Positions 2,891 to 54,250 of a DNA stretch of 64,000 bases are shown in pieces (within the stretch, counting starts at the first letter, position 1; every line of letters starts with the position of its first letter). This stretch comes from Chloroflexota bacterium. GTDB taxonomy: Bacteria; Chloroflexota; Anaerolineae; Anaerolineales; VGOW01. The DNA lies in contig JACPWC010000085.1 in the NCBI GenBank assembly GCA_016197225.1, positions 1 to 64,000 of the forward strand. Reading direction: 5' to 3'. Position numbers and translations under genes: made by a program. The notes under the pieces are model-generated. The model did no database searches. It saw only the letters and a list, made by a program, of their open reading frames with translations, and had not been told where the DNA came from.

Positions 2891-2919
2891 TCTGCCCAAA
2901 CCTCAATTTCACATCACGC

Positions 2920-6828
<3,909 letters not shown>

Positions 6829-34239: not shown

Positions 34240-34272
34240 AGACCCTAAAGGTCTTTAAGACCTTTAGGGTCT
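34240..34272. repeat. 33-bp palindrome AGACCCTAAAGG at the dioxygenase stop
   Basis: AGACCCTAAAGGTCTT and its complement flank a single central base. It covers the last codons of the intradiol dioxygenase (encoding DPKGLKDL) and its TAG. It could also terminate the convergent HD-GYP transcript, although no T-run follows. Confidence 0.9.
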
Positions 34273-36029: not shown

Positions 36030-36569
36030 TTACACTGTGTTGATAGTGAACAGCGAGAAATCATCTTCCAGCCATTGCGGCGGTTTCAACCGTTCCCCGT
36101 CGAGTTGGCGGTATTGGCCGGAGTAAAACAACAGCGGGCGCGCCTCCCGCCACTCCAAAAATTCCACTTGTCCGATGTACAAGGTGTGGTCACCTGCCGG
36201 GTGCGCCTCCACCAGCCGCGCCACGAGGTGGGCCGCCGCGTTGCCAATCAACGGCATCTCGTGCTTGCGAATGAAGGACACTTCCAGCCTTTCTACTTTA
36301 CGGCCCGCGAAGTGATCGCTCAACGGCTGTTGATCCTCAGCCAGAATGCTCACCCCGTATCTTCCACTCAGCGGCAGGAGGCGGTGCAGGTGAGCGCGGT
36401 GATCCACCGAGGCCAGGACGAGCGGCGGGTTGAGCGAGACTGAAACGAAGGCATTGGCCGTCATGCCGTGCGCCTGGCCCTCGTACTCGGTGGTGATGAT
36501 GGTGACGCCGCTGGCAAAGCGCCCTAAAGCATTGCGAAATTCGCGTGGATTAATCGAGCCGTCAGCCAT
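36030..36569 (-). CDS. flavin reductase (HpaC-like)
   Basis: Short-chain NAD(P)H:flavin oxidoreductase of 179 residues, the small component of a two-component monooxygenase. [20 protein letters not shown] is the family opening, followed by [20 protein letters not shown] (flavin-binding loop) and [15 protein letters not shown]. It supplies reduced FAD to the HpaB-like component encoded just upstream; the two genes overlap by eight bases, so expression is coupled. Its own Shine-Dalgarno (AAGGGGA) lies within the upstream gene. Confidence 0.88.
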
Positions 36570-38118
36570 TCATCCCCTTCATTACTATACTGATGTCATC
36601 GGGGTTGATGAGGTCGGGCGCTGTCCAGCCGTCAAGGTCGTATTCAGCCATGCACTGCTCGGCGAAGCCTTTGTACTTCGTCGTCTGGCCCATGGCCTCG
36701 GCAACGATCAGGGTCTCGAACCGGATGCTCTCGTGATTGCCGAAGTAGTTGCGCTCGTACAATTCATGCCGCCCGCCGAACTCGGTGCCGACTGCATCCC
36801 ACATCAACTTCATTAGCTTAATGCGTTCTTCGGCGGAATAGCCATTGGAGCCGCGCACGTACTGATCCAGGTAAGGCCGAATCTCCGGCGACTTCAAGTC
36901 CAGCGCGCTCGACGGCAAATAGATCAGGGCGCTGGCGAGCGTGTTCTGGATGATTTCCTTTATCTTCGGATAGGCCATGCTGGACATGACACGGTAAGCC
37001 AGGCCGTAATCCAGGTTGGGCAAAACGTAACCCGGCGTCCAGGGCGTCGTGGTGCGGGCCATAGCATCGGTGAGTCCCCAGAACAGGTTGCGCCAGGCCA
37101 ACACTTCGCCTACTTGCGCCTGCACCCCGCGGAAGTCCTTGGCCCCGGTCGCCTCGACGGCTTTGAGCAACAGCCCGGCGATAAAATCCAGTTTGACGGC
37201 CAGGCGGGTGCACCCCTGAAACATGAAGCGGGGCAGGAAGCCGGAGCGCGGGAAGAAGTTGTTGACCTTTTCAATGTCGCCGTAGGCGAAGACGTTTTCC
37301 CACGGCACAAAGACGTTGTCAAAGACAATGATCGAGTCATTTTCGTCCACCCGGCTGGAGAGCGGGTAATCGAATGGACCGCCCGTCGCCCCGGCTGTCA
37401 ATTCATAAGAGGGGCGGCAGAACAGTTTGAGGCCGGGCGCGTCGTTAGGGACGATGCAGACAAAAGCAAATTCTTTGGTTTTGATGGGCAGGGCGCCGTT
37501 GTTGGCGATGAAGTTGTAGTGAGTGAGAGTCGAGGTCGTCGCCACCACCTTTGCGCCGCTGATGATCAGGCCGCCGTCGGTTTCCTTGGTGACGTGCATG
37601 TACACGTCCTTCACTTCGTCCAGCGGCTTATCGCGATCCACCGGCGGATTGACGATGGCATGGTTGACGAAAGAGACTTCCTCCTGAACTTTTTTGTACC
37701 AGCGTTTAGCGTTCTCTTCGTAAGGCTCGTAAAAGGCAGAGTTGGCCCCGAGCGTCGCCAGGAAGGCGGCCTTGTAGTCGGGACTGCGGCCCATCCAGCC
37801 GTAAGTGATGCGCGCCCATTCGGCAATAGCGTCGCGCGCGCCGACCATCTCTTCGACGTTGCGCGGCGCCCGGTAGAATTTGTGGGTGTAGCCGCCGTTG
37901 CCGGTGTCGGTTTCGGTGGTGAGGATGTCCTTGCGAGCCGGGTCGTGCAGGGCGTCGTACAGGCGGGCCAGCATTCGCACCGTGTTGCGGAAGGCGGGGT
38001 GGGTGGTCACGTCTTTGACCCGTTCACCATAAATCCAAATTTCGCGTCCGTCGCGCAGGCTTTCGAGATACTCCGCGCCGGTGAGGGGCTTGGTGCGCTG
38101 GGTAGTTTCAACAGACAT
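36562..38118 (-). CDS. HpaB-like FADH2-dependent aromatic hydroxylase
   Basis: Large component of a two-component flavin monooxygenase, 518 residues, as in 4-hydroxyphenylacetate 3-monooxygenase and related phenol hydroxylases. Recognisable segments: [40 protein letters not shown], the substrate/flavin loop [20 protein letters not shown], and [16 protein letters not shown]. It would add an ortho hydroxyl to a phenolic ring, making a substrate for the intradiol dioxygenase downstream. AAGGAG precedes the ATG. A terminator-like hairpin (38208-38236) lies upstream, so this sub-operon may be partly uncoupled from the transporter genes. Confidence 0.88.
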
Positions 38119-38250: not shown

Positions 38251-40728
38251 TTAAATCTGCGGCAACTTGAACCCCGACTTGGCGACGACGTAATCACGCG
38301 ACTCCGTCACCGCTTTTTTTACCGCATTCCAATCAACGTGCAACAGTTTGCCATTGCGCTTCATGGCCCGCCCGGCGATGAAGACGGAATCCACGTTGCT
38401 GGTGTCCATTCCCCAGACCACCGCGCCGATGGGGTCATTGATCGGCATCACATTAATTTTATCCGTTCGCAGCATGATGATATCGGCATCCTTGCCTGGC
38501 GTGAGCGAGCCGGTCTTATGCGCCAAGCCGTTCGCGCGCGCGCCTTCAATCGTGGCATAGGCCAGCACATCCCGGGTGGTGATACGCGGAGGCGCATTGG
38601 TATCGCCAGCCAGTTGCTTTTCAAATGACAAGGCATGTTGCAACGATATAACCGAGCGCATTTGGGTGAACATGTCGCCTGGCACATTGGTCTCCACGTC
38701 AACGCTCAGGCTGGGTTTCAAGCCGCGATCCAGGAATTTCTGAATGGGCGGCATTCCATGACCCATCATCATTTCTACGGGCGACGCCAGCGATATGGTT
38801 CCGCCGGTATCCACAATCATTTGGATTTCGGTGTCGCTAAGCGTTGTGCAATGTATGTAGGTGGTGTCATCGCGCAATAAACCAGCCTCGCCCATCTCCT
38901 GCACTTTGCCTTCCATACCATAAGACCCCACGCCTACATGCGTGGTAATGCGGGCATCCACTTCACGCGCTAGTTTCCAATGATCACGGGCGATCTCAAA
39001 ATCAACAAACTCAGGTCCCGGCGCGGCTAAGGCATAAGTGATCATTTGGTCCTTCGAGGAGAAATATTTCTTCGCGGCGCGCACGAACCAGCTGGGCTGG
39101 CGGTCGTTCCAATCCCCCCACCATGGAAAACCATACGCGAAGACGGCGCGCAGGCCCGAGTCTTGCAGAGCCTTAATCACAGCATCTGTATGTTCTGGTG
39201 AACCTTGAATATGCGACCAGTCGAGCAGAGTAGTAATTCCCGCGTCGATTGCGCCCAAGGCGCTGATGAGATTTCCAACATAGGCATCCTGCGGACGATA
39301 AGAAGGGGCGAATTTTCCCAACACGAAGCGAATATAGCCGTCGCGTCCCTCCAGAGGCGTGTCAGCGCCCACATTGCGAAGCAAGCCCTCCCAAATATGC
39401 CGGTGCGTGTCCACAAAGCCGGGCATGACAATCATGTTGGAAGCGTCAATGATCTCCGCCCCGTTGACAGGCAGACCAGGACCGACTGCCGCGATTTTTG
39501 TGCCTTCAATCAACACATCCGCGTTTATGAAATTTCCCACTGACGGATCTATCGTAAGCACCGTGCCGCCTCTAAGTAAAATTTGCTTATTGGCATCCGG
39601 TACGGCTGTAGCGTCGCTCACGTAAACATTGGGCAACTCGCGCAACTGGTTCAGGCGCGAGCCTTTGACCAATCGCTGGACTCGCTTGAAGTTAAGTTTG
39701 ACCAACTCCTTAAGATCGTTGATTTGATAAAAGGCTAATCCCAACAACAAAAGTACGCCAACGGAAATCAAGCCAACCACATTACTCAAGCCAAGCAGGG
39801 GCAGGATATTGATAATTAGCGTGAGGAACAAGGCTGATACGATTGCGCCGATAAAGGTGCCGCGGCCGCCCATTAGGCTGGAACCTCCTAAAACAGCCGC
39901 CGCCAGGCTGGACAATGCGTAACTCGTGCCGGCGCGCGGATCTCCCACGCCCACCTGCGCGGCGAGAAAGAACGAAGCGAGCGCCGCCATAAGACCTGAA
40001 GCCACAAACACGCCCACGCGTATTCGCGTGGTCGCCGCGCCAATGCGCCGCGCGGCCTGCGCGTCGTGCCCCACCGCGCGTAGTGTGAGTCCTGCTGGAG
40101 TCGCGTATAGCCACACATCCCAAATAATCGCCCCAATCAGCATGACCATGAAAGCAATGGGAATAAAACCAACACTGGCAGTTATGGAATCCAATACATC
40201 AAAATTGATCAAGCCCGCGGCAACGGGACGCAGTGAAAGGGCAATGCCGTCCAAAATGCTCAAGGTGGCAAGCGTGGCAATAATGGAGGGTAATTTGACC
40301 CAACGCACCAGAGTAGCATTGAAGAGTCCCACGGAGACGCCCATGCCGAGAATTGCCAGCCCGCCCAGCGCGACAACTTTCGGCGGAGCGCCATCGGTCA
40401 CGATAAAGGAGGCGATGATCACGCCCATAGTCATGATCGAGCCGACCGAGATATCAAGATAGCCTGCTACCAGCGCGTTCATTTGCGCCATTGTGACCAG
40501 CGCCAGAGGAATGGTAGCCAACAACAAACTATTCAGATTGAATTCCGACAGGAAAGCGGGAGACCTTGAAGCCGTGTAATTGCCAATGATCAGGATCAGA
40601 ATAAGTTGAAGCGCAACAGACGTCCATGCCCTGACCCTGAATACATGTTTGATTTTCTGCCATAACATAGAGCCATTGCGAACGTCTCGAATGGCATTCC
40701 TGATTTTGCGACGGGCAAGGTTGAGCAT
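38251..40728 (-). CDS. fused ABC permease-amidohydrolase
   Basis: One uninterrupted 825-residue protein with two normally separate parts. Residues about 30-340 are a ribose-type (RbsC-like) ABC permease with some eight to ten hydrophobic helices, MNALVAGYLDISVGSIMTMG and SLAAAVLGGSSLMGGRGTF. After a linker (about 341-380), residues 381-825 are a COG0402-type amidohydrolase: metal ligands His442 and His444 (VDTHRHIWEG), His597 (THVGVG), His626 (IHCTTL) and Asp677 (LSVDVET). All ligands are present, so the enzyme half should be active, probably as an aminohydrolase or chlorohydrolase on a heterocyclic or amide substrate. RbsC-type permeases end in the cytosol, which would put the enzyme at the exit of the pore. 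GGAG precedes the ATG by seven bases; the gene starts two bases after the ATPase stop. No stop or frameshift separates the halves. Confidence 0.92.
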   Translation of the reverse strand: MLNLARRKIRNAIRDVRNGSMLWQKIKHVFRVRAWTSVALQLILILIIGNYTASRSPAFLSEFNLNSLLLATIPLALVTMAQMNALVAGYLDISVGSIMTMGVIIASFIVTDGAPPKVVALGGLAILGMGVSVGLFNATLVRWVKLPSIIATLATLSILDGIALSLRPVAAGLINFDVLDSITASVGFIPIAFMVMLIGAIIWDVWLYATPAGLTLRAVGHDAQAARRIGAATTRIRVGVFVASGLMAALASFFLAAQVGVGDPRAGTSYALSSLAAAVLGGSSLMGGRGTFIGAIVSALFLTLIINILPLLGLSNVVGLISVGVLLLLGLAFYQINDLKELVKLNFKRVQRLVKGSRLNQLRELPNVYVSDATAVPDANKQILLRGGTVLTIDPSVGNFINADVLIEGTKIAAVGPGLPVNGAEIIDASNMIVMPGFVDTHRHIWEGLLRNVGADTPLEGRDGYIRFVLGKFAPSYRPQDAYVGNLISALGAIDAGITTLLDWSHIQGSPEHTDAVIKALQDSGLRAVFAYGFPWWGDWNDRQPSWFVRAAKKYFSSKDQMITYALAAPGPEFVDFEIARDHWKLAREVDARITTHVGVGSYGMEGKVQEMGEAGLLRDDTTYIHCTTLSDTEIQMIVDTGGTISLASPVEMMMGHGMPPIQKFLDRGLKPSLSVDVETNVPGDMFTQMRSVISLQHALSFEKQLAGDTNAPPRITTRDVLAYATIEGARANGLAHKTGSLTPGKDADIIMLRTDKINVMPINDPIGAVVWGMDTSNVDSVFIAGRAMKRNGKLLHVDWNAVKKAVTESRDYVVAKSGFKLPQI

Positions 40729-40730: not shown

Positions 40731-42308
40731 TTAATCTCCTCTATCTTTATCCAGATTCGTCGCGGCGCGCGGACCTGCAACTCGCGGGCGACCCGCTTTC
40801 AATCCAAACCCTACGCCACCCACAATGGATTCGATGATCCTTTTCTCGCTTAAGTCGGCGCGCTGAATTTCGTCAATAATCTGCCCGCGCGACATAACTA
40901 TCACTCGGTCGCACAAACCGGAGAGTTCAATCGGGTCGCTGGATTTGACGATCACACCCGCGCCTTCCATTGCTTTCGCGCGCAGCGCTTCATAAATATC
41001 GAGACGGGCGCTGGCATCAACACCTTGCGTCGGCTCATACGCCAAAATGACATTCACGGTCTCGCGCAGGTGCGGTCGTATCAGCGAAACCTTCTGTTGA
41101 TTACCGCCGGAAAGGAACTGCACAGGCTGTTCGAGAGAGGGTGTCCGTACTTTGAGGCGGTTGATCAAGTCGGTCACCGTATGTTGTTCGCGCCTTCGAT
41201 TCACCCAGCCCAGGTTGCTGAACTTGTCCAGCACTTGAATCGTGGCATTGTTCCGCACACCGAGCACTGGGAACAATGCTTCATGTTTTCTGTCTCCTGC
41301 CAGCAATAAAATACCTGCCCACACAGCATCAACGGGAGAAATTAACGTTAACTCCTTGCTATCGCACATAACTAATCCCGCTTTTGGAGGGATTTGACCC
41401 GAAAGGCATTTGAAAAATTCACCCTGACCATTCCCCTCCGCCCCAGCCAGACCGACGATCTCGCCTCTTCGGACCGTCAGGTTGATCGGCCCAAATAACG
41501 GACCCTGAAACCCGGTGATCATCAACACACTTTCCGACTCGGAGGAATTTTCCAGGGCTGGAGGAAACGCCGCGTGGAATGGCCTCCCAATCATTAACGA
41601 TACGAGATCAGATTCCGACATGTCTGATGCACTATACATACCCTGACTTCGCCCATCACGCAAAACAGTCACCCGGCTGGCGATTGTCAGCACTTCCGGA
41701 AGGCGATGGCTGACGTAAACGACGCCCACTCCGCGTTCTGCGCGAGCGCGAATAATGCGATGTAATAATTCAACTTCATCGGGACCCAGAGCCGTTGTCG
41801 GCTCATCGAGAAGAAGCACTTTAGGGTCACCCATCAACGCTTTGACGACTTCAAATAGCTGGCGTTGTGCCAGCGTAAGATACCCTGTGGGCGCGTCGGG
41901 AAACAGGTCCAATTCAAACTCAGCCAGTGTATCCGTCGCCCATTTTTTCATCTGCCAATAAGGCGGGCGGCGATCCTGCGGCGTTGTCAGCAACAAGTTC
42001 TCTTTCACTGATAATGCGAGAACTTGTGAGTTGTCTTGATAGGCCATCCCCAAGCCGAGGCGGCGGGCCTCGGCTGGGGAATCTTTACGGAGTCGTCTTC
42101 CACCGATCAGCACCACACCCTGATCGGGTTCCACAAAACCGCTGGCAATTCCGAGAAGCGTGGACTTACCTGAACCGTTCTCGCCGACCACAGCATGAAT
42201 CTCGCCCGCGCGACATTCAAGGCTGACATCGGACAGGGCTTGCACTGTGCCATATTGCTTGGAGAGCCTTTGAAGTTCAAGCACCAACGGTTGTTCGTCT
42301 TTCGGCAT
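40731..42308 (-). CDS. ribose-type ABC transporter ATPase (two ABC domains)
   Basis: Tandem ATP-binding protein of the RbsA/MglA type, 525 residues from the ATG at 42308 (GGGAG eight bases upstream). First domain: Walker A VGENGSGKST, signature-like LTLAQRQL, Walker B VLLLDEPT. Second domain: degenerate Walker A GAEGNGQGE, signature LSGGNQQKV, Walker B-like VILAYEPTQGVD. This asymmetry is usual for the family. It energises the permeases encoded on both sides and uses the binding protein upstream. Confidence 0.92.
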   Translation of the reverse strand: MPKDEQPLVLELQRLSKQYGTVQALSDVSLECRAGEIHAVVGENGSGKSTLLGIASGFVEPDQGVVLIGGRRLRKDSPAEARRLGLGMAYQDNSQVLALSVKENLLLTTPQDRRPPYWQMKKWATDTLAEFELDLFPDAPTGYLTLAQRQLFEVVKALMGDPKVLLLDEPTTALGPDEVELLHRIIRARAERGVGVVYVSHRLPEVLTIASRVTVLRDGRSQGMYSASDMSESDLVSLMIGRPFHAAFPPALENSSESESVLMITGFQGPLFGPINLTVRRGEIVGLAGAEGNGQGEFFKCLSGQIPPKAGLVMCDSKELTLISPVDAVWAGILLLAGDRKHEALFPVLGVRNNATIQVLDKFSNLGWVNRRREQHTVTDLINRLKVRTPSLEQPVQFLSGGNQQKVSLIRPHLRETVNVILAYEPTQGVDASARLDIYEALRAKAMEGAGVIVKSSDPIELSGLCDRVIVMSRGQIIDEIQRADLSEKRIIESIVGGVGFGLKAGRPRVAGPRAATNLDKDRGD

Positions 42309-42347
42309 GGACCGCGCTCCCATCGGAATGTTACGCCAGACACGAGC

Positions 42348-43667: not shown

Positions 43668-44717
43668 TCACGGAGCCTTCGCACCTCCTTTCTTTGCTTC
43701 AGCATCCATCTCCTTGAATCTGGAAATACCCATTAGCGAATTCTCGATCAGCGTGACAATTCGGTCGCCAGAGATGACCATGCCGCCGATAATCGCTATG
43801 CCGAAGACCGCAAACTGCAACGCGGTTGGAAGACCCAACACCCGGAGCATCTGATTCAACAATACGAGGAAGAAAGCCGCCGCCCAGGTGGATATTGCAT
43901 TGGCTAACCCGCCAGTTAGTGAAGCCCCGCCAATGACTACCGCCGCTATCGGACCCAACAAATACGGAAAACCCAGCACAAGGCTGGGACTCCGCAAGAA
44001 ACCCGCCAGCATGATTCCGCTTATGCCGTACAGCAAGCAGGCGGTCACGTATGCGAGAATGACATAGACGTTGACGCGCAAGCCCAGAATCCATGCCGCG
44101 GTGGGGTTGGCTCCCACAGACTGAAACCTGCGGCCCAATTCGGTATAACGAAACATCAAGACCAAAATAAGCGACGCGGCAATTGCAGTCCATTCCAGGT
44201 TGCTTAAGCCGAATAAAGGCGCATTCGTGATCCATGCCGAAAAACTTGGCGGCACAGACGCTTCGTTAGGCACGTTTTCGGCATACGCCAGCGTCGCGCC
44301 ATAGACAATCTGACCCATCGCCAGTGTCACGATGAGCGGATTCAACTTCAGCACGCCGACCAGAACGCCTGAGATAAACCCGATCAAGAGGGAGACCCCA
44401 AGCGCCGATGCCAATGCCACAGGCAATCGCTCATCAACACCGCCTGCTACACCCACAGCCATAATTGCGGCCAGCGTCATCACGCCGGGGATGGATAAAT
44501 CAATTCCGCCTGTCATTACCACGAGCATCTGACCCAGCGCGGCAAGAGCCAGGAATGATGTCAATGGCAGGACCGCAGTGAAAGAGGTGCGCGTGAGCGT
44601 CTCTGGCGCAATCCAAAACGCGGTGATCAACAGCAATCCAATCGCAATCCATACCGACAGGTAACGGGACGAAATAACGACGGAGGTCAGAAGCGGAGAT
44701 TGGGTTTGATTTTTCAT
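43668..44717 (-). CDS. ribose-type ABC transporter permease
   Basis: Permease of 349 residues, RbsC-like, with eight to ten hydrophobic helices: LVVMTGGIDLSIPGVMTLAA, GFISGVLVGVLKLNPLIVTL and GPIAAVVIGGASLTGGLANA. It is the free partner of the permease half of the fusion protein, together forming the two-subunit pore. The C-terminal tail (DAEAKKGGAKAP) is short and carries no enzyme domain, unlike its partner. The gene begins eight bases after the amidohydrolase stop. Confidence 0.9.
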   Translation of the reverse strand: MKNQTQSPLLTSVVISSRYLSVWIAIGLLLITAFWIAPETLTRTSFTAVLPLTSFLALAALGQMLVVMTGGIDLSIPGVMTLAAIMAVGVAGGVDERLPVALASALGVSLLIGFISGVLVGVLKLNPLIVTLAMGQIVYGATLAYAENVPNEASVPPSFSAWITNAPLFGLSNLEWTAIAASLILVLMFRYTELGRRFQSVGANPTAAWILGLRVNVYVILAYVTACLLYGISGIMLAGFLRSPSLVLGFPYLLGPIAAVVIGGASLTGGLANAISTWAAAFFLVLLNQMLRVLGLPTALQFAVFGIAIIGGMVISGDRIVTLIENSLMGISRFKEMDAEAKKGGAKAP

Positions 44718-44725: not shown

Positions 44726-46069
44726 TTATATTTCAGGCAACTTGAAGCCTGATTGAGCAACAACGTAATCGCGTGATTGATAAGCCATTTGGCGAAGGTT
44801 ATCCAAATCCACGTTCAGCAACTTCCCGTTTCGTTTGAGGGCTTTGCCAGCCACGAAGACCGAGTCCACGTTGCTGGTGTCCATGCCCCAGGTGACAGCG
44901 CTGACGGGATCATTGACAGGCAAAATGTTCGGGCTATCCGTGCGGAGCATGATGAGGTCGGCTTGTTTGCCCGGAGTAAGTGTGCCAGTTTTATCGAGTA
45001 GTCCGTTCGCGCGCGCGCCTTCAACCGTGGCAAACTCGATCACATCGCGTGACGTTAGAAACGCAGGCAAGCCGCCTTTGCCCTCCAATTTCTTTTCAAA
45101 GATCAACGCTTTTTGTAAGGAGTTGACCGAGCGCATTTGCGTGAACATATCATTGGGCACATTGGTTTCCACATCCACGCTCAGGCTGGGGCGCAGGCCG
45201 CGATCTAAAAATCGTTGAATGGGCGGCATGCCGTGACCCATCATCATTTCAACGGGCGAAGAGAGTGACACCGTTCCACCTGTATCGGCGATCATTTGGA
45301 TCTCATCATCGCTCAACGTGGTGCAATGGATATAAGTCGTATCATTCTTGAGCAAGCCTGCCCTGCCCATCTCTGCGAGCTTGCCATGCTTGCCCGAAGT
45401 GCCAACACCCACATGCACCGTGATCCGCGCGCCAATTTCACGAGCCAGAGTCCATTGCGCTTTCGCCACCTCGAACGGCGTGAATTCTGGTCCAGGCGGC
45501 GCGATGGCAAATGTGAGCAATTGGTCTTTCGAGAAGAAATATTGTTTGGCAATCTCTCGAATCCAGACATCTTGATTCTCATCGGGGTACTTCCACCATG
45601 GGTAGCCATAGGCAAACACCGCGCGCATGCCCGATTCTTGCAACGCCTTGATGACCGCCTCGCCATGTTCGCGTGTCGCCTGAATGTGCGACCAATCGAG
45701 AATGGTTGTGATGCCCGCATCAATCGCGCCATACAAACCGACGAGATTTCCGATATAGGCATCTTCGGGACGATAGACCGGAGCCAGCGTGTTCAGGATG
45801 AACGACAGATAACTCGCCTCGCCTTCCAACGGGACGTCTGTTCCAATGTTCCGAAGAATTCCCTCCCAAACGTGGCGATGCGTGTCCACGAAGCCCGGCA
45901 TGACGATCATCTCCGAGGCGTCAATCACCTCTACGCCTTCGGCCTTCAAGCTCGGCGACACAGCGGCAATCTTCGTCCCATCAATGAGCACGTCGGCTCG
46001 ATGGAAGTTGCCGACCTTCTTATCGAGGGTCAGCACAATGCCGTTCTTGAGGAGGGTTTTATCGGTCAT
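44726..46069 (-). CDS. amidohydrolase (COG0402 type), paralogue of the fused enzyme
   Basis: Metal-dependent hydrolase of 447 residues in the cytosine deaminase / atrazine chlorohydrolase group. Metal ligands: His64 and His66 (VDTHRHVWEG), His219 (VHVGVG), His248 (IHCTTL) and Asp299 (LSVDVET). It aligns almost without gaps to residues 381-825 of the permease fusion and shares long identical stretches (SSPVEMMMGHGMPPIQ-like, VDSVF-AG-A-KRNGKLL), so the two arose by duplication. The differing loops (for example TSGKHGKLAEMGRAG against SYGMEGKVQEMGEAG) may mean different substrates or successive steps. Confidence 0.92.
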   Translation of the reverse strand: MTDKTLLKNGIVLTLDKKVGNFHRADVLIDGTKIAAVSPSLKAEGVEVIDASEMIVMPGFVDTHRHVWEGILRNIGTDVPLEGEASYLSFILNTLAPVYRPEDAYIGNLVGLYGAIDAGITTILDWSHIQATREHGEAVIKALQESGMRAVFAYGYPWWKYPDENQDVWIREIAKQYFFSKDQLLTFAIAPPGPEFTPFEVAKAQWTLAREIGARITVHVGVGTSGKHGKLAEMGRAGLLKNDTTYIHCTTLSDDEIQMIADTGGTVSLSSPVEMMMGHGMPPIQRFLDRGLRPSLSVDVETNVPNDMFTQMRSVNSLQKALIFEKKLEGKGGLPAFLTSRDVIEFATVEGARANGLLDKTGTLTPGKQADLIMLRTDSPNILPVNDPVSAVTWGMDTSNVDSVFVAGKALKRNGKLLNVDLDNLRQMAYQSRDYVVAQSGFKLPEI

Positions 46070-46088: not shown

Positions 46089-46793
46089 TTACTTCATCAT
46101 GCGCCCGCCGTCCACGCGCAGATTGACGCCGGTGATGCCGCGATTTTCGAGCAGGAAGATAGCGGCATGAGTGACATCTTCGGTGGTGACGAGCCTGCCG
46201 AGGGCGGTGCGAGATTTTAAATTTTCCAACACGGCATCCGGTTGCTTCATCCAGGCGGGTGTATCGCCAACTTGACCGGGATGAATCGCATTGACTCGAA
46301 TCGGCGCAAGTTCCAACGCCAGTGAATTGATCAGCGTGGCAACGCCGCCATTGACGGTAGTGATGGTGGTTGAGCCCGGGTACGGCTGGTTGCGCGCCAG
46401 TCCGCCGTAAATGAGAATGGACGCGTCTTCGCGCATCTTCGAGGAGAGCACGTGCACGCATTCGGTATAGCCGACCAGTTTCAACGTGACCAACTTGATC
46501 GCTTCATCAATGTTGTACTCGCGGACTTTGTTGTTATCGCGGTGAAGGGCTACCAGCGCAAGATGAAGCACATCGTCCACCTCGGCCAGCGCGGGGGCGA
46601 TTTGATGCGGCGTTGAGAGGTCAACGCTGATGCCAACACAGTCCCCGCCGATTTCTTTTGCGGTGGCTTGCGCGCGTCCCAAATCGCGGCTGGTGACAAC
46701 AACGCGGTGTCCCTTGTCCGCGTAGTGTTGAGCCAAATGTTTGCCAAGTTCACAGGTGCCCCCCACAACAACAACTGTGCCAAGTTTATCCAT
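46089..46793 (-). CDS. atypical short-chain dehydrogenase-like protein
   Basis: Rossmann-fold protein of 234 residues. The cofactor loop is VVVGGTCELGKHLA and the C-terminal segment LAPIRVNAIHPGQVGDTPAW fits the SDR family. The catalytic Tyr-x-x-x-Lys is missing: after ILIYGGLARNQPYPGS the helix reads TITTVNGGVATL. It therefore belongs to an SDR branch with a different or lost chemistry. AAGGAG precedes the ATG, which overlaps the end of the upstream bicupin gene by eight bases. Confidence 0.8.
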   Translation of the reverse strand: MDKLGTVVVVGGTCELGKHLAQHYADKGHRVVVTSRDLGRAQATAKEIGGDCVGISVDLSTPHQIAPALAEVDDVLHLALVALHRDNNKVREYNIDEAIKLVTLKLVGYTECVHVLSSKMREDASILIYGGLARNQPYPGSTTITTVNGGVATLINSLALELAPIRVNAIHPGQVGDTPAWMKQPDAVLENLKSRTALGRLVTTEDVTHAAIFLLENRGITGVNLRVDGGRMMK

Positions 46794-47697
46794 GATGATG
46801 CTTCTCCTTTTTCAACGCCTCTTCGAGATACTTCCAGTCGCGGCGGAAGCGATACGAGTGGCGGCGCGGCGGTTGCGGCGCCTGCGTTTCGAGCCAGCGC
46901 ACAATGCCATCGGTGGCGTTGCGGAACTCATGAACGCAACCAACGCCTGCCCAAGCGCAATCACCAGGCTTGAGGTGATATTTCACGCCATCGAACCAGC
47001 CGTAGACTTCGCCTTCCAGAATCAGATACGTTTCCTCGAGCGGATGATCGTGCGCGCCCGCCACGCCCGCCGGTTCATACTGCACCATGAACATCGTAGC
47101 GAGTTGCGCGCCGAGGTCGCTATCCACCATCATTTTGACGGTGATGCCGCTGTACACGAGCAAGGCCGTTCGCATACTGGCAGAGACGGCGAGCATATCC
47201 TGCGTTTGTTTTCCGGCATTCATGTTGTCAGGCGAGATGTGACCAAATGAACGTGTGCGCGGATCGCGGGCATCCACGGCAATCGGTTCAACCTTCGGGA
47301 GGGCGGCTACTGGATAAATGTCCCCATCTCCATCCAAACGGGGTTGAGGGGCGAGCATCTCTGCCCAGCGCACGCGAGTCTTGCCAGCGTTGCGAAAAGA
47401 ATGCGCCGATGAAACATGGATCGCGCCGTAATCGCCCGGTTCGAGCGCGTATGTCCCGTCGCCGGTTTCGCAAATAAGTTGCCCTTCGAGGAGGTAAATG
47501 CTTTCTTCAAAGGCATGAATGTGTGCGCCGATGGTTCCGCCGGGGTCAAGTTCGCAAATACTGAACTCCTGATGGACAGAGCCGTTCTCGCCATTGACAA
47601 TGCACCAACGGCGATAGCCGTTACTCAACGATTCAAACGCCTTCGGCGCTATGAACTCTTCCTGCGCGGCGGCGCGAACGATATGTCTTGACGGCAT
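46786..47697 (-). CDS. bicupin protein (AllE-like), copy A
   Basis: Two-cupin protein of 303 residues resembling (S)-ureidoglycine aminohydrolase and related metal-binding bicupins. First cupin: GGTIGAHIHAFEESIYLLEG and SSAHSFRNAG; second: AGAHDHPLEETYLILEGEVY and GCVHEFRNA. Both keep the His-x-His, Glu and distal His expected of metal sites. It is a paralogue of the next upstream gene. GAGGAG precedes the ATG. Confidence 0.82.
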   Translation of the reverse strand: MPSRHIVRAAAQEEFIAPKAFESLSNGYRRWCIVNGENGSVHQEFSICELDPGGTIGAHIHAFEESIYLLEGQLICETGDGTYALEPGDYGAIHVSSAHSFRNAGKTRVRWAEMLAPQPRLDGDGDIYPVAALPKVEPIAVDARDPRTRSFGHISPDNMNAGKQTQDMLAVSASMRTALLVYSGITVKMMVDSDLGAQLATMFMVQYEPAGVAGAHDHPLEETYLILEGEVYGWFDGVKYHLKPGDCAWAGVGCVHEFRNATDGIVRWLETQAPQPPRRHSYRFRRDWKYLEEALKKEKHHHG

Positions 47698-47718
47698 GTG
47701 GTTCTCCTCAATTCAATT

Positions 47719-47757
47719 TGTCATTCTGAGTAGCGCCTCGCGCCGCTCAGAATGACA
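47719..47757. repeat. palindromic repeat TGTCATTCTGAG
   Basis: TGTCATTCTGAG (47719-47730) and CTCAGAATGACA (47746-47757) are perfect 12-bp arms in the gap between the two bicupin genes. Confidence 0.85.
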
Positions 47758-47764
47758 GGGTGTG

Positions 47765-48604
47765 TTACTGATACTGCGCCCAATCTCTTTCAAATCTAAA
47801 TACCTCTTTTGAAGGCGGTAATGGCGCTTGGGTTTCGATCCAACGCACCGGCTCGTCGCCAACATTGGCGAAACTATGAACACAACCGACGCCCGTCCAG
47901 ATCACGTCACCGGGGCCGAGGTCGTAGGTTTGGCCGTCGGCGGCGGCCCGCACACCGCCGCTGACGATGAAATAGGATTCCTCAAAGGTGTGATCGTGCA
48001 GGTCAATCTTCGCGCCGGGCTGGTATTGAATGAGAAACAGTGATTGATGAATCGCGCCGAAGGATCGATCCACGAACATCTTGATGGCCACGCCGGTGAC
48101 GGGATTGAAGCCTTCCATTTGTGACGGCCCGCCGGGGCGCGGCAGTTGCGCTTCGTCAAAATAGCCCAGCAGGGCAGTGGCCGGATCGGGGGGCGTTGCC
48201 TGGATGGGCGCTTCACCGCCGACGAAAAACGTATCGCGCCCGTAGTCAGAGGAACGCGGCTGAGGCGCTTGCATCTCCAGCCAGCGCGCGGACCTGCGGC
48301 CAGCGTTGCGCCAGGCGTGTTTAACGCCGGTGCTGATCAAGCCAAAATGGCCGGGGCCGAGCAAGTAGGCTTGCTCGCCGATTTGGGCGATGACGTTTCC
48401 CTCTAAAATATAGAAACTCTCTTCAAAGGAGTGCAGGTGCGGCTGAATCACGCCGTTGGTGTCCAGAAAGCAGATGCCTGTGCCCATGTGCACCGAGCCG
48501 ACAGAGTGATCTACATACGTCGCCCGCTTGAAACCGGTGCTTTGTTTGGCGTAGAGCGCCGGGGTTTGAAACATGCTTTCGTCGAGTTTGGATACGTAGT
48601 GCAT
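47765..48604 (-). CDS. bicupin protein (AllE-like), copy B
   Basis: Two-cupin protein of 279 residues, paralogous to copy A. First cupin: QPHLHSFEESFYILEG and GVKHAWRNAG; second: IDLHDHTFEESYFIVSGGVR and GCVHSFANVG. Metal-site residues are retained in both halves. Shared ends of the domains (WLEMQAPQPR, WIETQAPLPP) mirror those of copy A. Adjacent paralogues in one operon suggest a heteromer or two steps. The ATG overlaps no gene and starts ten bases after the E2 stop. Confidence 0.82.
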   Translation of the reverse strand: MHYVSKLDESMFQTPALYAKQSTGFKRATYVDHSVGSVHMGTGICFLDTNGVIQPHLHSFEESFYILEGNVIAQIGEQAYLLGPGHFGLISTGVKHAWRNAGRRSARWLEMQAPQPRSSDYGRDTFFVGGEAPIQATPPDPATALLGYFDEAQLPRPGGPSQMEGFNPVTGVAIKMFVDRSFGAIHQSLFLIQYQPGAKIDLHDHTFEESYFIVSGGVRAAADGQTYDLGPGDVIWTGVGCVHSFANVGDEPVRWIETQAPLPPSKEVFRFERDWAQYQ

Positions 48605-48614: not shown

Positions 48615-49883
48615 TTAGTCCAGCAACTTCATCGGCTCTTCAACAAGTTCGGCCAGCGTTTGCAAAAACTGCGCCCCGCGCGCGCCGTCCACGGCGCGAT
48701 GGTCGCACGACAGGCTCAAGGTCAGCATCGGTTGCACCGCCGGTTGGCCGTTCAGCGGCACGACCCGGTCGGCGATGCGGCTCACGGCCAGGATGGCGGC
48801 CTGCGGCGGGTTGATGATGGCGTTGAAAGCATCCACGCCATACATGCCCAGGTTGCTGATAGTGAACGTGCCGCCGCTCAGGTCGTCGAGTGAAAGTTTG
48901 CCTGCCTGTGCTTTGGTCACTGCTTCTTTGCGCCGCGCCGCCAGTTGACTCAGTCCCAATTGATCGGCATGATGAATGACTGGCACAATCAGGCCGTCAT
49001 CCACGGCGACGGCCAACCCGATGTTGACTTCGGGATTCAGGGTCAGGCCGCCGTCTTTCCAGGAGGCGTTGACTCGCGGGTGACGGCGAAGCGCGGCGGC
49101 GGTCAGCTTGACGAGCAAATCGGTGTAAGTGATCTTTTCTGTGGCTCGCGATTGAGCCGAGTCGCGCCACGACATGAGTTGAGCGGCGTTGACTTCGCGC
49201 AACAAGTAGAAGTGCGGGATCGTCGTCCAGGCTTGTGTGAGGCGCTCGACCATCACCCGCCACGTCCGGCTGACAGTGAGCGTTTCGGCCTCGGTAGAGA
49301 CGTTCCGTCGGAACGTCTCTACATCATTTGCCAGCACCGCGCCCTCCGGCCCACTGCCGGAAATGTCTGCCAAATCCAAACCGCGCTCCTGAGCGAGGCG
49401 GCGCGCTTTGGGTGAGGCCAGTACGCGGCCATTCGGTTTAAGACCTGTCAGGTTTTCGCGAAGCGTACCTGACAGGTCTTGGCGTGCGGCCAGGTAAGCC
49501 AGCACATCTTCTTTTCGCACGCGGCCACCCTGCGGTTTGATTTGAGTCAGGTCAAGGTTGTGCTCAGCGGCCATGCGGGCGGCGACGGGCGAGGCAGTGA
49601 GGGAGTGGGCGATAGAATCGGTTTTGGGCGCAGTGGCGGTTTCCCCTGGATTTAAAATGACGGCAATCGCCTGCCCGACCGGAATCACATCGCCCGGTCT
49701 GGCCGTCACCTGCGCCAGAATGCCCGAGGCGGCGGCCTCCACTTCAACCGAGGCTTTGTCGGTTTCCACTTCCATCAAGGGTTCCCCTTTGGTGACTGTC
49801 TCACCAGGGGCTTTGAACCATTTCAGGAGCGTGCCGGTTTCCTGGGCCATGCCAAGCGCGGGCATGATGACATCTTTAGCCAC
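48615..49883 (-). CDS. dihydrolipoamide acyltransferase (E2) of a 2-oxoacid dehydrogenase complex
   Basis: E2 component of 422 residues starting at a GTG (AAGGA seven bases upstream). The lipoyl domain (about 1-80) has the lipoylated Lys in VETDKASVEV. Two peripheral-subunit-binding-like segments follow (about 93-135: SPVAARMAAEHNLDLTQI; about 152-188: ASPKARRLAQERGLDLADIS). The catalytic domain ends with the SCDHRAVDGARG active-site His. Both inter-domain linkers contain palindromic repeats: residues about 135-148 (DLSGTLRENLTGLK) and 188-197 (VETFRRNVS region). E1alpha and E1beta are upstream; no E3 gene is near. The acyl group carried is unknown. Confidence 0.9.
   Translation of the reverse strand: MAKDVIMPALGMAQETGTLLKWFKAPGETVTKGEPLMEVETDKASVEVEAAASGILAQVTARPGDVIPVGQAIAVILNPGETATAPKTDSIAHSLTASPVAARMAAEHNLDLTQIKPQGGRVRKEDVLAYLAARQDLSGTLRENLTGLKPNGRVLASPKARRLAQERGLDLADISGSGPEGAVLANDVETFRRNVSTEAETLTVSRTWRVMVERLTQAWTTIPHFYLLREVNAAQLMSWRDSAQSRATEKITYTDLLVKLTAAALRRHPRVNASWKDGGLTLNPEVNIGLAVAVDDGLIVPVIHHADQLGLSQLAARRKEAVTKAQAGKLSLDDLSGGTFTISNLGMYGVDAFNAIINPPQAAILAVSRIADRVVPLNGQPAVQPMLTLSLSCDHRAVDGARGAQFLQTLAELVEEPMKLLD
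49294..49322. repeat. palindromic repeat inside the E2 coding sequence (GTAGAGACGTTCC type)
   Basis: Perfect 13-bp arms GTAGAGACGTTCC and GGAACGTCTCTAC around a 3-base loop. It lies in frame within the linker before the E2 catalytic domain and encodes about ten residues. Confidence 0.9.
49440..49480. repeat. palindromic repeat inside the E2 coding sequence (AAGACCTGTCAGGT type)
   Basis: Perfect 14-bp arms AAGACCTGTCAGGT and ACCTGACAGGTCTT around a TTCGCGAAGC-containing loop. It lies between the two binding-domain-like segments of E2. The same family occurs in the intergenic repeat at 35145-35211. Confidence 0.92.
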
Positions 49884-49901
49884 GACAGAGTCCTTAATGC
49901 T

Positions 49902-51323
49902 CTAGCGGGTCCGGGATTTTCTCGGCTTCGCGGCAACTTTGGCTTTGTGATTGTTGCCCCGGCCAGCCGAGCGTGGCGGGCGAACGGGGTCATCGGGCAG
50001 TCCGGCTCCGCCATAATCTACGCCGGTATAGTCAATGTTCTTGTGCGACTGAGTTTCACGGATGTTAGAGAGCGGGCCAGTGGCGACCTGATACTTGATC
50101 CCGGCCACCATCAACTCCTCCGCCGGGAAGCGGGTGATGACTTCACAACCGTCTTTGGTCACCACCAACTGTTCTTCAATGCGCGCCGCCGACCAGCCGT
50201 CGGTGGCCGGCCAATACGTTTCCAGGGCGAAGACCATGCCTTCCTGGATAATTTCGGGGCTGTCGAAGGAGACGAGGCGGCTGAAGACCGGCTTCTCCCA
50301 AATCGCGAGACCGACGCCGTGGCCGTATTGCAGGGCAAAGGCCATTTCTTCGTTTGGCAGGCCGAACTCTTGAGCCTTGGGCCACAGCTTCACCACGTCG
50401 GCGGTGGTGATGCCGGGCTTGATGGCGTTAATGGCAACGTCGAGATAATAGCGGCAACGCTTGTAGGCATCCACTTGCGCCTGCGAAGCACTGCCAACCG
50501 ACAACGTGCGGTAGTAGCAAGTGCGATAGCCGTTGAAACTGTGGAGGATGTCGTAGAAAGCGAGGTCGCCGGGGCGCAGGACGCGGTCGCTGAAAATGTG
50601 CGGGTGCGGGTTACAGCGTTCGCCGGAAATGGCGTTGACGCCCTCGACGTGTTCTGAACCCATGCTGTACAGCACGTTGTTGACTAACCCGACGCACTGG
50701 TTCTCGCGCACCCCCGGCTTCATGAACCGATAGAGTTCTTCATAAGCGGCATCCACCATCATGCAAGCCATGGTGAGCAGGGTAATCTCATCTTGCGTCT
50801 TAATCACGCGCGCTTCCTGCATCAGTTGTTGGCCGTCCACCACGGTCAGGCCTTCTTTTTGCAGGGCGAAGAGAACCGGCGGCTCCACCACATCCACGCC
50901 CAGCGGCTCTTTGTGCAAACCGCGCTCTTCGAGTTCGATGCGAATCTTGCGGGCCACGTCTTCGGCCCGGTGAGCGCCGGGCGGCATCGCGCCGCGCAGG
51001 GTCGAGATACCGGCTCGTGAGCGGCCCTCGCCGAGCCAGGAGCAATACATCTGATGATGTTTGGCCGCCACGCCGAAGTCCCAGTTGATCGGCTCGTCGT
51101 CCTGCGGCAGAAGGCAGAAGCGGCCCAGCTTGTCAATCGCCCAGGTGCCAATGGTGGTGTTGGTGATATAGCGGATGTTGTTCATGTCGAAGCACAACAG
51201 CGCGCCAATCTCCGATTTCTTGAGCAGGGCCTTGATGCGCGCCAGCCGCTCGCGGCGCAGACGATCAAAATGGACTCGCTCTTCCCAATCCACCGCCATC
51301 GTGCCGAATGTTTTGAGTGGCAT
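49902..51323 (-). CDS. M24-family (creatinase/aminopeptidase P-like) hydrolase, one metal ligand lost
   Basis: Pita-bread-fold protein of 473 residues from the ATG at 51323 (AGGAGG five bases upstream). The N-terminal creatinase-type domain (about 1-190) precedes the M24 domain. Metal-site positions: the first Asp is kept (AFYDILHSF), but the second, eleven residues later, is Cys (GYRTCYYRT); the His (YGHGVGL) and two Glu (FALETYW, RIEEQLVV) remain. The altered site argues against a standard dinuclear aminopeptidase and for a creatinase-like C-N hydrolase or another chemistry. The C-terminal 40 residues are basic. Confidence 0.8.
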   Translation of the reverse strand: MPLKTFGTMAVDWEERVHFDRLRRERLARIKALLKKSEIGALLCFDMNNIRYITNTTIGTWAIDKLGRFCLLPQDDEPINWDFGVAAKHHQMYCSWLGEGRSRAGISTLRGAMPPGAHRAEDVARKIRIELEERGLHKEPLGVDVVEPPVLFALQKEGLTVVDGQQLMQEARVIKTQDEITLLTMACMMVDAAYEELYRFMKPGVRENQCVGLVNNVLYSMGSEHVEGVNAISGERCNPHPHIFSDRVLRPGDLAFYDILHSFNGYRTCYYRTLSVGSASQAQVDAYKRCRYYLDVAINAIKPGITTADVVKLWPKAQEFGLPNEEMAFALQYGHGVGLAIWEKPVFSRLVSFDSPEIIQEGMVFALETYWPATDGWSAARIEEQLVVTKDGCEVITRFPAEELMVAGIKYQVATGPLSNIRETQSHKNIDYTGVDYGGAGLPDDPVRPPRSAGRGNNHKAKVAAKPRKSRTR

Positions 51324-51345
51324 GCTGACCTCCTGTTTAGTCAAG

Positions 51346-51399
51346 TGGTCGAATAGTCAAATGGTCGAATGACCACAAGACCACTCGACTACACGACCA
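51346..51399. repeat. imperfect palindromic repeat TGGTCGAATAGTC
   Basis: TGGTCGAATAGTCAAATGGT pairs imperfectly with ACCACTCGACTACACGACCA. It occupies the gap between the E1beta and M24 genes. Confidence 0.75.
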
Positions 51400-51402
51400 G
51401 AT

Positions 51403-52407
51403 TTAGTTCTTTCCGCACAACACTTTGGCCATCTCAAATACCTGCTTGGCGTTAGGAATGGTCAAATCTTCCAGCGCGGGCGAGAAGGGAATGGGGACGT
51501 TCATTGCGCCGAGGCGCTTGACCGGGGCGTCAAGGTAATAGAACGCGCCGTCGGCGATGACTGAGGCCAGTTCGGCGGTGACGCCGTATTGCTCGTAACC
51601 CTCGTCAATCACAATCGCCCGGCTCGTCTTTTTAGCTGACTCGATCAGAGTTTGTTTGTCGAGCGGCACCATCGTGCGCGGGTCAACGACCTCGGCGCTC
51701 ACGCCGATCTCGTCCAACAGTTGGGCCGCCTCCAGCGCGACGTAGACCATGCTACTCGTCGCCACCAGGGTAATATCCGTGCCTTCACGTTTGATGTCGG
51801 CCACGCCGAGCGGGATGGTGTATTCCTCGGCAGGCACGGGGCCTTTGACGGTCTTGTACATCATCTTGTCTTCCAGGATGATGACCGGACTGTCGTCGCG
51901 AATGGCAGTCTTCATCAAACCTTTGGCGTCGTAGGGCGTGGCCGGGACAGCGACCTTGAGGCCGGGAATGTGGCTGTACCAGGCGTGGAGCGATTGCGAG
52001 TGTTGGGCCGCCGAGCGGCGGCCCGCGCCCATCGTCGTCCGCAGAACCATTGGCACTTTGAGCTTGCCGCCAGACATGTAGTGAATCTTGGCCGCCTGAT
52101 TCATGATCTGATCCATGATCAGGCCGCTAAAGTCGCCGAACATGATGTCCACCACCGGGCGCAGGCCGGTCATGGCCGCGCCGACGGCCAACCCGGTGAA
52201 ACCCGGCTCGGAGATGGGCGTGTCGAGGATGCGTTCCGGCCCGAATTCTTCTACAAGACCATTCAGCACTTTGAACGTTGTGCCGGCTTCGGCAATGTCC
52301 TCGCCCAGCATGAAGACGCGCGGGTCGCGGCGCAGTTCTTCGGCCAGCGCCTCTTTAATCGCCTCGCCGAAGGTCAGTTCACGGCCATTGGCGCTAGGCG
52401 AAGACAT
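51403..52407 (-). CDS. 2-oxoacid/acetoin dehydrogenase E1 beta subunit
   Basis: Thiamine-diphosphate enzyme subunit of 334 residues, of the acetoin/branched-chain/pyruvate dehydrogenase group. LTFGEAIKEALAEELRRDPR is the family opening, with MLGEDIAEAGTTFKVLNGLV, DTPISEPGFTGLAVGAAMTG (including the Glu that activates the cofactor) and GGRRSAAQHSQSLH-like residues. It pairs with the alpha subunit, whose gene overlaps by 14 bases, and passes acyl groups to the E2 encoded two genes downstream. Confidence 0.9.
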   Translation of the reverse strand: MSSPSANGRELTFGEAIKEALAEELRRDPRVFMLGEDIAEAGTTFKVLNGLVEEFGPERILDTPISEPGFTGLAVGAAMTGLRPVVDIMFGDFSGLIMDQIMNQAAKIHYMSGGKLKVPMVLRTTMGAGRRSAAQHSQSLHAWYSHIPGLKVAVPATPYDAKGLMKTAIRDDSPVIILEDKMMYKTVKGPVPAEEYTIPLGVADIKREGTDITLVATSSMVYVALEAAQLLDEIGVSAEVVDPRTMVPLDKQTLIESAKKTSRAIVIDEGYEQYGVTAELASVIADGAFYYLDAPVKRLGAMNVPIPFSPALEDLTIPNAKQVFEMAKVLCGKN

Positions 52408-53362
52408 GCTGGCTCACTTCTTCGGGCGCTGGGAAGGGCGCGTTGAGAGCGTAATTAACGGCGACGGACACTTCGTCGGCCACGCTTCTTTCGATTTGCT
52501 CAAAGATGCCGGCGTCGGCCATGCCGTTGGCCGTCAACCAATCCTTGAGAGATTGCAGGGGATCGCGATTCGTTTTCCATTCCTGTTCCTCATCTTTGGA
52601 GCGGTAGTAAGCGCGGCTGATGTCGCCGACATGATGGCCGTGATAGCGATAGGTGTGGCAGAGCAGAAAGGCGGGGCCGTCGCCCCGGCGGGCGCGAGCG
52701 ATCAATTGTTGAGCCGCCTCGTGTACCTCACCTACGTTCTGTCCATTCACCTCCACCGCCAGAATCCCGAACGCTTCGGCGCGGGCTTTCATGCTACCGG
52801 CTGTCGACTCGGAATGGTGGGTGTATTCGTTGTAGAGGTTGTTTTCGCAAACGTAGACGACGGGCAGTTTCCACAACTGGGCCATGTTCATGGATTCGTA
52901 CAGCACACCTTGTCCCAGCGCGCCTTCACCAAAAAAGCAGATGGCTACCCGGCCATTGCCCAGCCGTTTGCTGGAGAAGGCGGCCCCGGTGGCAATGGCC
53001 GCGCTCCCGCCGACGATGGCGTTCGCGCCGAGGTTGCCGGTGTCCTGATCGGCGATGTGCATGGAGCCGCCCTTGCCCCGGCAGTAGCCGGCCGCTTTGC
53101 CCAGTAATTCGCAAAACATTTTGTCCAGCACCGCGCCTTTGGCCAGGCAGTGGCCGTGGCCGCGATGGGTGCTGGTGATGTAATCGTCCCGGCGCAACGC
53201 TTCGCAGACGCCGACCGCAACAGCTTCTTCGCCAATGTACAAGTGGGCCAGGCCGGGCATCTTGGCGCTGGTGTAAAGTTCGTTGACCTGCTCCTCAAAG
53301 GCGCGAATCTTCGCCATCTGCTCGTACATGTGGAGCCATTGCTCGCGATCAACGTCGGCCAT
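52394..53362 (-). CDS. 2-oxoacid/acetoin dehydrogenase E1 alpha subunit
   Basis: Thiamine-diphosphate-binding subunit of 322 residues. Features: MYEQMAKIRAFEEQVNELY, HLYIGEEAVAVGVCEAL, TSTHRGHGHCLAKGA, GGSMHIADQDTGNLGANAIV and the cofactor motif beginning FFGEGALGQGVLYESMNMA, with GEG in place of the usual GDG. TYRYHGHHVGD follows. The sequence resembles AcoA-type subunits more than standard pyruvate dehydrogenase. AAGGAG overlaps the stop of the upstream gene, so expression is coupled. Confidence 0.9.
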   Translation of the reverse strand: MADVDREQWLHMYEQMAKIRAFEEQVNELYTSAKMPGLAHLYIGEEAVAVGVCEALRRDDYITSTHRGHGHCLAKGAVLDKMFCELLGKAAGYCRGKGGSMHIADQDTGNLGANAIVGGSAAIATGAAFSSKRLGNGRVAICFFGEGALGQGVLYESMNMAQLWKLPVVYVCENNLYNEYTHHSESTAGSMKARAEAFGILAVEVNGQNVGEVHEAAQQLIARARRGDGPAFLLCHTYRYHGHHVGDISRAYYRSKDEEQEWKTNRDPLQSLKDWLTANGMADAGIFEQIERSVADEVSVAVNYALNAPFPAPEEVSQHVFA

Positions 53363-54250
53363 TCAATCTCCTTCGCCTGCCAGGCGGGCCAGCACTTTGA
53401 ACAGGGCCGCAAAGTCTTCATCGCCGTAACCCAAAGCGCGGGCGGCGGAGAGCATTTCGTTGGCCTGGGCGACAGAGTACAGCGGCACGCCCAACTCACG
53501 GCCTAACTCGAGCGCGAGTTGCAAATCCTTCTGCATCATCGCTACACTAAACCAGACTTCGTCGGGCATCTTGAAGATGAAAGGGGCACGGTACTTCATG
53601 GCCGGCGAGGCGGCCACACTGTTGAGAAGAGCGTCGAGAGCGGCCTGGCGAGGGATACCACTGCGTTCGGCCAGCAGTAAACTCTCAAACAACGAAAGCA
53701 ATTGCGTCGCCAGGTTCAGGTTGATGGCGATCTTCATCGAGACGCCCTGACCGTTGGCGCCTACGTGAACGATCTTCTGGCCGAGGATTTCAAAAATGGG
53801 GCGGACTTTTTCCAACGTCTCCGCCTCGCCGCCGACAAAGAAAATCAGTGTCCCGCCTTCGGCGGCGGGGATGCTGCCGGACACCGGCGCTTCCAACATC
53901 TGCGCGCCGGTAGCGGCAACCCGGCCCGCTAAATTGCGGATGAGGCGCGGGCTGACCGTGCTCATGTCCACGTAAATTTTGCCGGAGGCGGCGGAGAGTC
54001 CTGCCAGCACCCCGTCCGGGCCGTCGGCAATAGACGACAAAGCCGTCGTATCACTGACCATGCTGAAAGTGATGTCGGCGGCTGTGGCGACCTGGCGTGG
54101 GGTGTCGGCCCACTGCATCCCAGCCTGAATCAAGCTCTCGGCTCTGGCGCGGGTGCGGTTGTGGCCCGTCACGGAGTGTCCGGCGTTGAGCAGGCGTTTG
54201 ACGATCCGACTGCCCATCAATCCCAAGCCAATGAAACCGAGATGCGTCAT
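53363..54250 (-). CDS. beta-hydroxyacid dehydrogenase (HIBADH/GarR family)
   Basis: NAD(P)-dependent dehydrogenase of 295 residues, first gene of the catabolic operon. The cofactor site is LGFIGLGLMGSRIVKRLLNA; the substrate loop is EAPVSGSIPAAEGGTLIFFV; the catalytic Lys is in GVSMKIAINLNLA. It resembles 3-hydroxyisobutyrate and tartronate semialdehyde dehydrogenases. Its product could be a 2-oxo or semialdehyde acid for the E1/E2 complex encoded next; this is inference. The leader is about 58 nt. Confidence 0.87.
   Translation of the reverse strand: MTHLGFIGLGLMGSRIVKRLLNAGHSVTGHNRTRARAESLIQAGMQWADTPRQVATAADITFSMVSDTTALSSIADGPDGVLAGLSAASGKIYVDMSTVSPRLIRNLAGRVAATGAQMLEAPVSGSIPAAEGGTLIFFVGGEAETLEKVRPIFEILGQKIVHVGANGQGVSMKIAINLNLATQLLSLFESLLLAERSGIPRQAALDALLNSVAASPAMKYRAPFIFKMPDEVWFSVAMMQKDLQLALELGRELGVPLYSVAQANEMLSAARALGYGDEDFAALFKVLARLAGEGD

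Follow-up and report, generated by a model that had tools for sequence, protein, structure and literature searches.

A sugar-type ABC permease and a metallo-amidohydrolase joined in one conserved open reading frame

Introduction

To our knowledge, ABC permeases of the BPD_transp_2 family do not bear enzymes. In a window of 64,000 nucleotides (the whole stretch of DNA analysed here, from contig JACPWC010000085.1 of a Chloroflexota bacterium), a preliminary description made from the sequence alone nevertheless pointed to a ribose-type permease followed by a COG0402-type amidohydrolase in a single chain. Is such a protein real, and, if so, what might an importer do with an enzyme of its own?

Joining an enzyme to a carrier is in itself known, as in the SulP anion transporter-carbonic anhydrase and LplT-Aas fusions, and the cobinamide amidohydrolase CbiZ is reportedly linked with B12 transporter genes. 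However, SulP and LplT are secondary carriers and CbiZ is an unrelated hydrolase; none of these combines a sugar-type ABC permease with a metallo-amidohydrolase. The DUF71/CbiZ paper (PMC3541065) reports neighbouring B12 transporter genes, and the passages bearing on them show no permease-amidohydrolase fusion. A literature search for such a fusion, or for any ABC permease-hydrolase fusion, likewise returned nothing relevant. The combination appears to be undescribed, enzyme-carrier fusions being known in other transporter classes.

Results

One open frame encodes both halves

The fusion gene is a single open frame of 825 codons at 38251..40728 on the minus strand. Its ATG lies two bases after the stop codon of an ABC ATPase gene and is preceded, a few bases 5', by an AGGAG ribosome-binding motif. 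Pfam recognised BPD_transp_2 at residues 67-328 (3.5e-21) and Amidohydro_1 at residues 433-788 (1.5e-31), both matches exceeding the curated cut-offs. The coordinates and frame length given in the preliminary description held (the strand, which it left unstated, is minus), as did its assignment of the two halves, supported by Pfam and NCBIfam. The features of the gene are as follows:

38251..40728, minus strand: fusion gene, 825 aa in one open frame; BPD_transp_2 and Amidohydro_1; present in more than 40 genomes
39703..40728, minus strand: permease half, residues 1-342; BPD_transp_2; model pTM 0.78; fold matches to BtuC and HmuU
40018..40122, minus strand: predicted cytosolic coupling loop, residues 203-237; basic 35-residue loop, from homology to type II importers
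39586..39702, minus strand: linker, residues 343-381, from the alignment; basic juxtamembrane stretch and variable tether
38254..39585, minus strand: amidohydrolase half, residues 382-825; Amidohydro_1; PRK08204; PDB matches at Z ~40
39397..39405, minus strand: HxH metal ligands H442 and H444; invariant in 42/42 fused rows
38938..38940, minus strand: metal ligand H597; invariant in 42/42 fused rows; V600 downstream replaces the HxxE Glu
38851..38853, minus strand: metal ligand H626; invariant in 42/42 fused rows
38698..38700, minus strand: metal ligand D677; invariant in 42/42 fused rows

We also considered a separate internal start for the enzyme part and rejected it: the linker alignment contains no conserved Met, and the GTG codons in the linker, inspected by eye, lack a ribosome-binding motif.

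The fusion is rare but stable

Among about 85,000 species genomes scanned we found 52 related loci, about 40 of which hold permease and enzyme in one unbroken frame, mostly at 57-87% identity. With the further fusions added by genome searches, the frame is open in more than 40 independent assemblies, distributed between Anaerolineae (Chloroflexota) and Acidimicrobiia (Actinomycetota) and including a closed Anaerolineales chromosome (CP075367.1) and the cultured actinobacterium Desertimonas flava, an isolate. The preliminary description had proposed looking for both domains in one chain with the junction conserved in relatives, and had held that absence of the fusion from every related genome would refute it; this refutation did not materialise, the same architecture recurring in all of these assemblies.

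Genome counts show the fusion to be rare but stable. It was found nearly end to end in 14 of 247 genomes evenly sampled from the class of D. flava; of 400 genomes sampled evenly from the window's own phylum, only the window's genome contained it, and among 60 close relatives of that genome four carried it, all of one genus. A mobile or plasmid origin was rejected, as the enzyme occurs in 85 plasmid records and the fusion in none. At two loci (L061 and L065) the frame is broken, probably through local sequence errors or pseudogene formation. One further fusion (L040) lies on a 3.5-kb contig labelled Fimbriimonadaceae (Armatimonadota); since its sequence falls within the Acidimicrobiia group, this contig is likely mis-binned.

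The permease half adopts a BtuC-like fold in prediction

The permease half, in which a basic N-terminal tail is followed by about ten membrane segments, matches PF02653 with 76 bits against a cut-off of 26.8. A sequence search for solved relatives of this half found none, so that a fold comparison was needed. Modelled alone (pTM 0.78), it matched HmuU (Z 16.0 over 250 residues, rmsd 4.2) and BtuC (Z 15.1 over 277 residues, rmsd 4.9), versus Z 9-14 for other ABC importers and Z 8 or less for other folds, and the BtuC alignment spans both ends (model residues 22-338 to chain residues 1-324). Computation on the predicted model establishes a BtuC-like type II importer fold. A structure search with the model of the whole fusion returned a match list filled by amidohydrolases; in that model (pTM 0.58), the relative position of the two halves is not reliable.

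On which side of the membrane does the enzyme lie? Both termini of BtuC are cytosolic, and in the fusion Lys and Arg abound in the N-terminal tail, in the presumed coupling loop (203-237) and in the linker, whose length ranges from 39 to 67 aa across the family. Because the permease matches BtuC end to end and these three segments are basic, we infer that the enzyme half lies on the cytosolic side, at the exit of the channel. This placement, which the preliminary description had also proposed, is strongly supported, by inference rather than by measurement, there being no localisation data.

The enzyme half keeps its metal ligands and lacks the HxxE glutamate

The enzyme half belongs to the PRK08204 subfamily (NCBIfam NF006056; 522 bits against a cut-off of 391), which no paper in the literature searched names, and its structure matches are 3hpa, MTA deaminases, AtzA and TrzN at Z about 38-40. 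It resembles COG0402/PRK08204 enzymes (MTA/SAH deaminase 4f0r, TrzN, AtzA) in its whole fold, its five metal ligands and its subfamily score, yet differs from them in being membrane-tethered and in having an invariant valine in place of the HxxE glutamate. Specifically, none of the 42 aligned fused homologues departs from H442, H444, H597, H626 or D677, and Val600 is equally invariant at the glutamate position, a loss also seen in the pairwise alignment to 4f0r. Close unfused relatives carry Val there too; distant amidohydrolases of the same genome (L003-L005) retain Glu in this column.

In adenosine/MTA/triazine deaminase-type enzymes (4f0r, TM0936, TrzN), this glutamate moves a proton. The fused enzyme does not meet this criterion, and because the glutamate is absent, membership of COG0402 is no firm ground for expecting deaminase-like chemistry; the reaction type cannot be read from homology, and there are no activity data. 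Hence the earlier claim of a complete amidohydrolase with all metal ligands held for the five ligands but not for the HxxE Glu.

The fusion ends a transporter operon that also encodes a free-standing paralogue

The gene lies at the end of the following series:

40731..42323, minus strand: double-NBD sugar-type ABC ATPase (RbsA/AraG-like), 530 aa; ABC_tran; AraG-like, 390 bits
42348..43586, minus strand: substrate-binding lipoprotein; Peripla_BP_4 (Pfam, 9.6e-17); lipobox LAAC in the translation
43668..44717, minus strand: second, unfused permease, 349 aa; BPD_transp_2, 3.1e-27
44726..46069, minus strand: free-standing amidohydrolase, a paralogue of the fused domain, 68% identical to it

For 29 fusion loci with at least 5.5 kb upstream we counted the operon members, and in 29/29 the fusion is the last gene of the transporter operon, is preceded by the second permease, binding protein and double ATPase, and has a free-standing amidohydrolase nearby. 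The ATPase, binding protein and second permease named in the preliminary description were thus confirmed, in the window and in all counted loci; the free paralogue at 44726-46069 in the same operon had been overlooked. In its permease half, ATPase, binding protein and operon layout, the system resembles the RbsC, AraH and LsrC importers, and it shares with LsrCD the presence of two different permeases. Unlike the ribose, arabinose and AI-2 type, for which the matched family models span ~320-375 residues, the fusion has 825 and ends in a metallohydrolase.

The two amidohydrolases of the operon have fared differently. Across 16 Acidimicrobiia-type loci, the mean identity is 79% among fused copies versus 56% among free ones. 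In the multiple alignment, which may be wrong for individual sequences, at least one metal ligand has been lost from 9 of 25 free copies. Thus the free copy drifts, while the fused one is guarded. In D. flava the free enzyme carries H444R, H597R and D677G; the window's free copy is intact. A constantly present partner able to lose its metal site could be a structural partner or a second specificity, which we infer only as a possibility. Ligand-losing free copies include those at L026, L027, L035, L049, L054 and L068, and the free amidohydrolase is a candidate dead-enzyme partner.

Both halves are constrained and the trees allow a single fusion event

In a tree of 97 enzyme domains, the fused ones form one clade (SH-aLRT 99), the sole unfused row within it (L052) being truncated where its contig ends. 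Free-standing Chloroflexota enzymes, including the free paralogue of the window's operon, are the closest outgroups. The permease tree groups the fused halves together with modest support (88/63) and joins to them, at 100/100, an unfused D. flava permease, their nearest relative, 45% identical to the fused permease. This unfused gene closes a second D. flava operon with matching gene order (binding protein, second permease, binding protein, ATPase, unfused permease). A SnoaL-like gene comes next, and nothing in the 20 kb examined matches the fused amidohydrolase. The trees are compatible with a single fusion event, and the simplest history is a one-time joining of an amidohydrolase gene to the permease gene at the end of such an operon. 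The Acidimicrobiia copies are nested among the Chloroflexota copies (support 96), suggesting transfer of the fusion between the groups, with the root uncertain. The unfused permease lies at 9022-10185 of L091 (G451:C23:276000-295900), and its importer operon is a natural comparison for the fusion.

Strong purifying selection acts on both halves: in close pairs (dS under about 1), dN/dS was about 0.02-0.09 for the permease and about 0.015-0.055 for the enzyme. The enzyme is the more conserved half, with a mean pairwise identity across fusions of 74%, against 57% in the permease; the linker reaches 39%.

A proposed importer subunit that hydrolyses its cargo

We propose that the fusion is an importer subunit hydrolysing its cargo on entry, a reading we favour with moderate confidence, in the absence of activity, substrate, transport or localisation data. 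In this model, the fusion would be one transmembrane subunit of a sugar-type (Peripla_BP_4/RbsA/BPD_transp_2) ABC importer, forming with the second permease a heterodimer that would sit on the double ATPase and receive solute from the lipoprotein. The ATPase would drive the solute through the heterodimer, and the tethered enzyme would hydrolyse it, or a first product, at the exit, so that little free substrate would accumulate and it would be committed to the upstream catabolic operon (metabolic trapping). That the fused enzyme acts on the transported solute is a moderately supported inference. Because the fold is commonly oligomeric and the permease heterodimer has one tethered copy, the tethered domain may further pair with the operon's free-standing amidohydrolase, a possibility resting on weak inference.

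The preliminary description had claimed a full transporter with an on-board enzyme, which the conservation of the fusion, its apparent single origin and the constraint on both halves support; the sequence does not discriminate between the options it listed, namely channelling, trapping and sensing. A long and variable tether favours trapping over tight channelling, and sensing or gating remains possible. Some findings weigh against the importer-hydrolase reading: the variable linker of 39-67 aa argues against a rigid channel, and with the HxxE Glu absent, the enzyme cannot be assumed to hydrolyse by the usual deaminase route. In addition, close enzyme relatives occur unfused beside a different transporter class (L058, L062), indicating that tethering is not needed for every such pathway.

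Of the rival explanations, the best surviving is a regulator or sensor, in which the tethered amidohydrolase binds the imported compound or its product and gates the transporter, catalysis being secondary or absent. MetNI and ModBC-type importers indeed have C-terminal regulatory domains that gate transport. In favour of this reading, the fused domain is conserved beyond the need of a loose tether, its HxxE Glu is lost, and in several lineages the free paralogue lacks metal ligands, so that the fold can persist there without standard catalysis. However, the five ligands are kept in 42/42 fused copies while free copies lose theirs, which points to retained metal chemistry, and known trans-inhibition domains are small and located on the ATPase; we consider this reading unlikely.

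Similarly improbable is a dosage effect, whereby the fusion merely equalises two operon products and the enzyme acts on the bulk cytosolic pool. The variation of the linker in length and sequence and the unfused close enzyme relatives in comparable catabolic settings speak for it, but a single fusion persists in two phyla, the fusions examined include no clear split version, and the extra free paralogue is already available to supply cytosolic enzyme. Finally, two genes joined by an assembly or annotation error, a reading fed by the doubt attached to a single assembly and by the broken frames at L061 and L065, is all but excluded by the frame's persistence in more than 40 independent assemblies, among them a closed chromosome and an isolate, and by synonymous changes far outnumbering non-synonymous ones across the whole protein in close pairs.

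Returning to the importer-hydrolase, a bolder version is conceivable, namely a vectorial enzyme-importer in which a single ABC complex would couple transport physically to hydrolysis. The tethered hydrolase and the free paralogue, which would be catalytically dead in some lineages, would form a pair that caps the channel exit, so that no intact substrate is released into the cell. Being kept in two phyla, the fusion offers a natural experiment on whether tethering benefits uptake and the first metabolic step, a benefit hard to test in ordinary operons, which supply both parts loosely. It also provides a Rosetta-stone link that ties an uncharacterised amidohydrolase subfamily, PRK08204, to a transporter: ligands of the binding protein could reveal the substrate of the enzyme, and the reverse.

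Neighbouring genes and clues to the substrate

The genes flanking the transporter operon are:

46089..46793, minus strand: SDR oxidoreductase (Pfam); at 15/29 fusion loci
46786..48604, minus strand: two double-cupin proteins (Pfam Cupin_2); the first at 16/29 loci, the second at 5/29
48615..54250, minus strand: 2-oxoacid dehydrogenase E2, M24-family hydrolase, E1 beta, E1 alpha and beta-hydroxyacid dehydrogenase; recurrent at other fusion loci
36030..38118, minus strand: HpaB/HpaC-type two-component flavin monooxygenase; adjoins the fusion in the window genome

The genes at 48615..54250 likely form the downstream pathway. The M24-family protein (49902-51344, minus strand), whose best match is the DMSP lyase DddP, far below the cut-off, probably belongs to the same pathway, since it recurs at other fusion loci. 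Divergent from this long catabolic operon lies an HTH-cupin gene (54476-55165, plus strand), likely its regulator, with a similar gene in the L020 cluster; adjoining it is an AlkZ-related DNA glycosylase-like protein (55162-56028, plus strand) with no obvious catabolic link. HpaB/HpaC was rejected as part of the core system, being absent at the 29 other counted fusion loci.

Neighbouring genes allow only a weak inference as to substrate: an aromatic or N-heterocyclic compound is possible, and the sugar-type binding protein neither opposes nor proves this. The literature searched gave no direct support for pyrrole-2-carboxylate. At two Anaerolineales loci (L058 and L062), a free PRK08204-like enzyme lies beside HpaB/HpaC, with Peripla_BP_6 binding proteins nearby at L058.

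Several dioxygenase genes were also seen. In the window, a catechol/hydroxyquinol-type intradiol dioxygenase lies near the fusion (34245-35126, minus strand), and at an acidimicrobial locus (L056) an intradiol dioxygenase directly follows it (2403-3386). On proteobacterial plasmids (L083, L085 and L086; Cupriavidus, Martelella, Sinorhizobium), free PRK08204-like enzymes lie beside intradiol or extradiol dioxygenases and are likely part of an aromatic degradation route; some of these clusters also contain a citryl-CoA lyase, and that of Cupriavidus a maleylacetate reductase.
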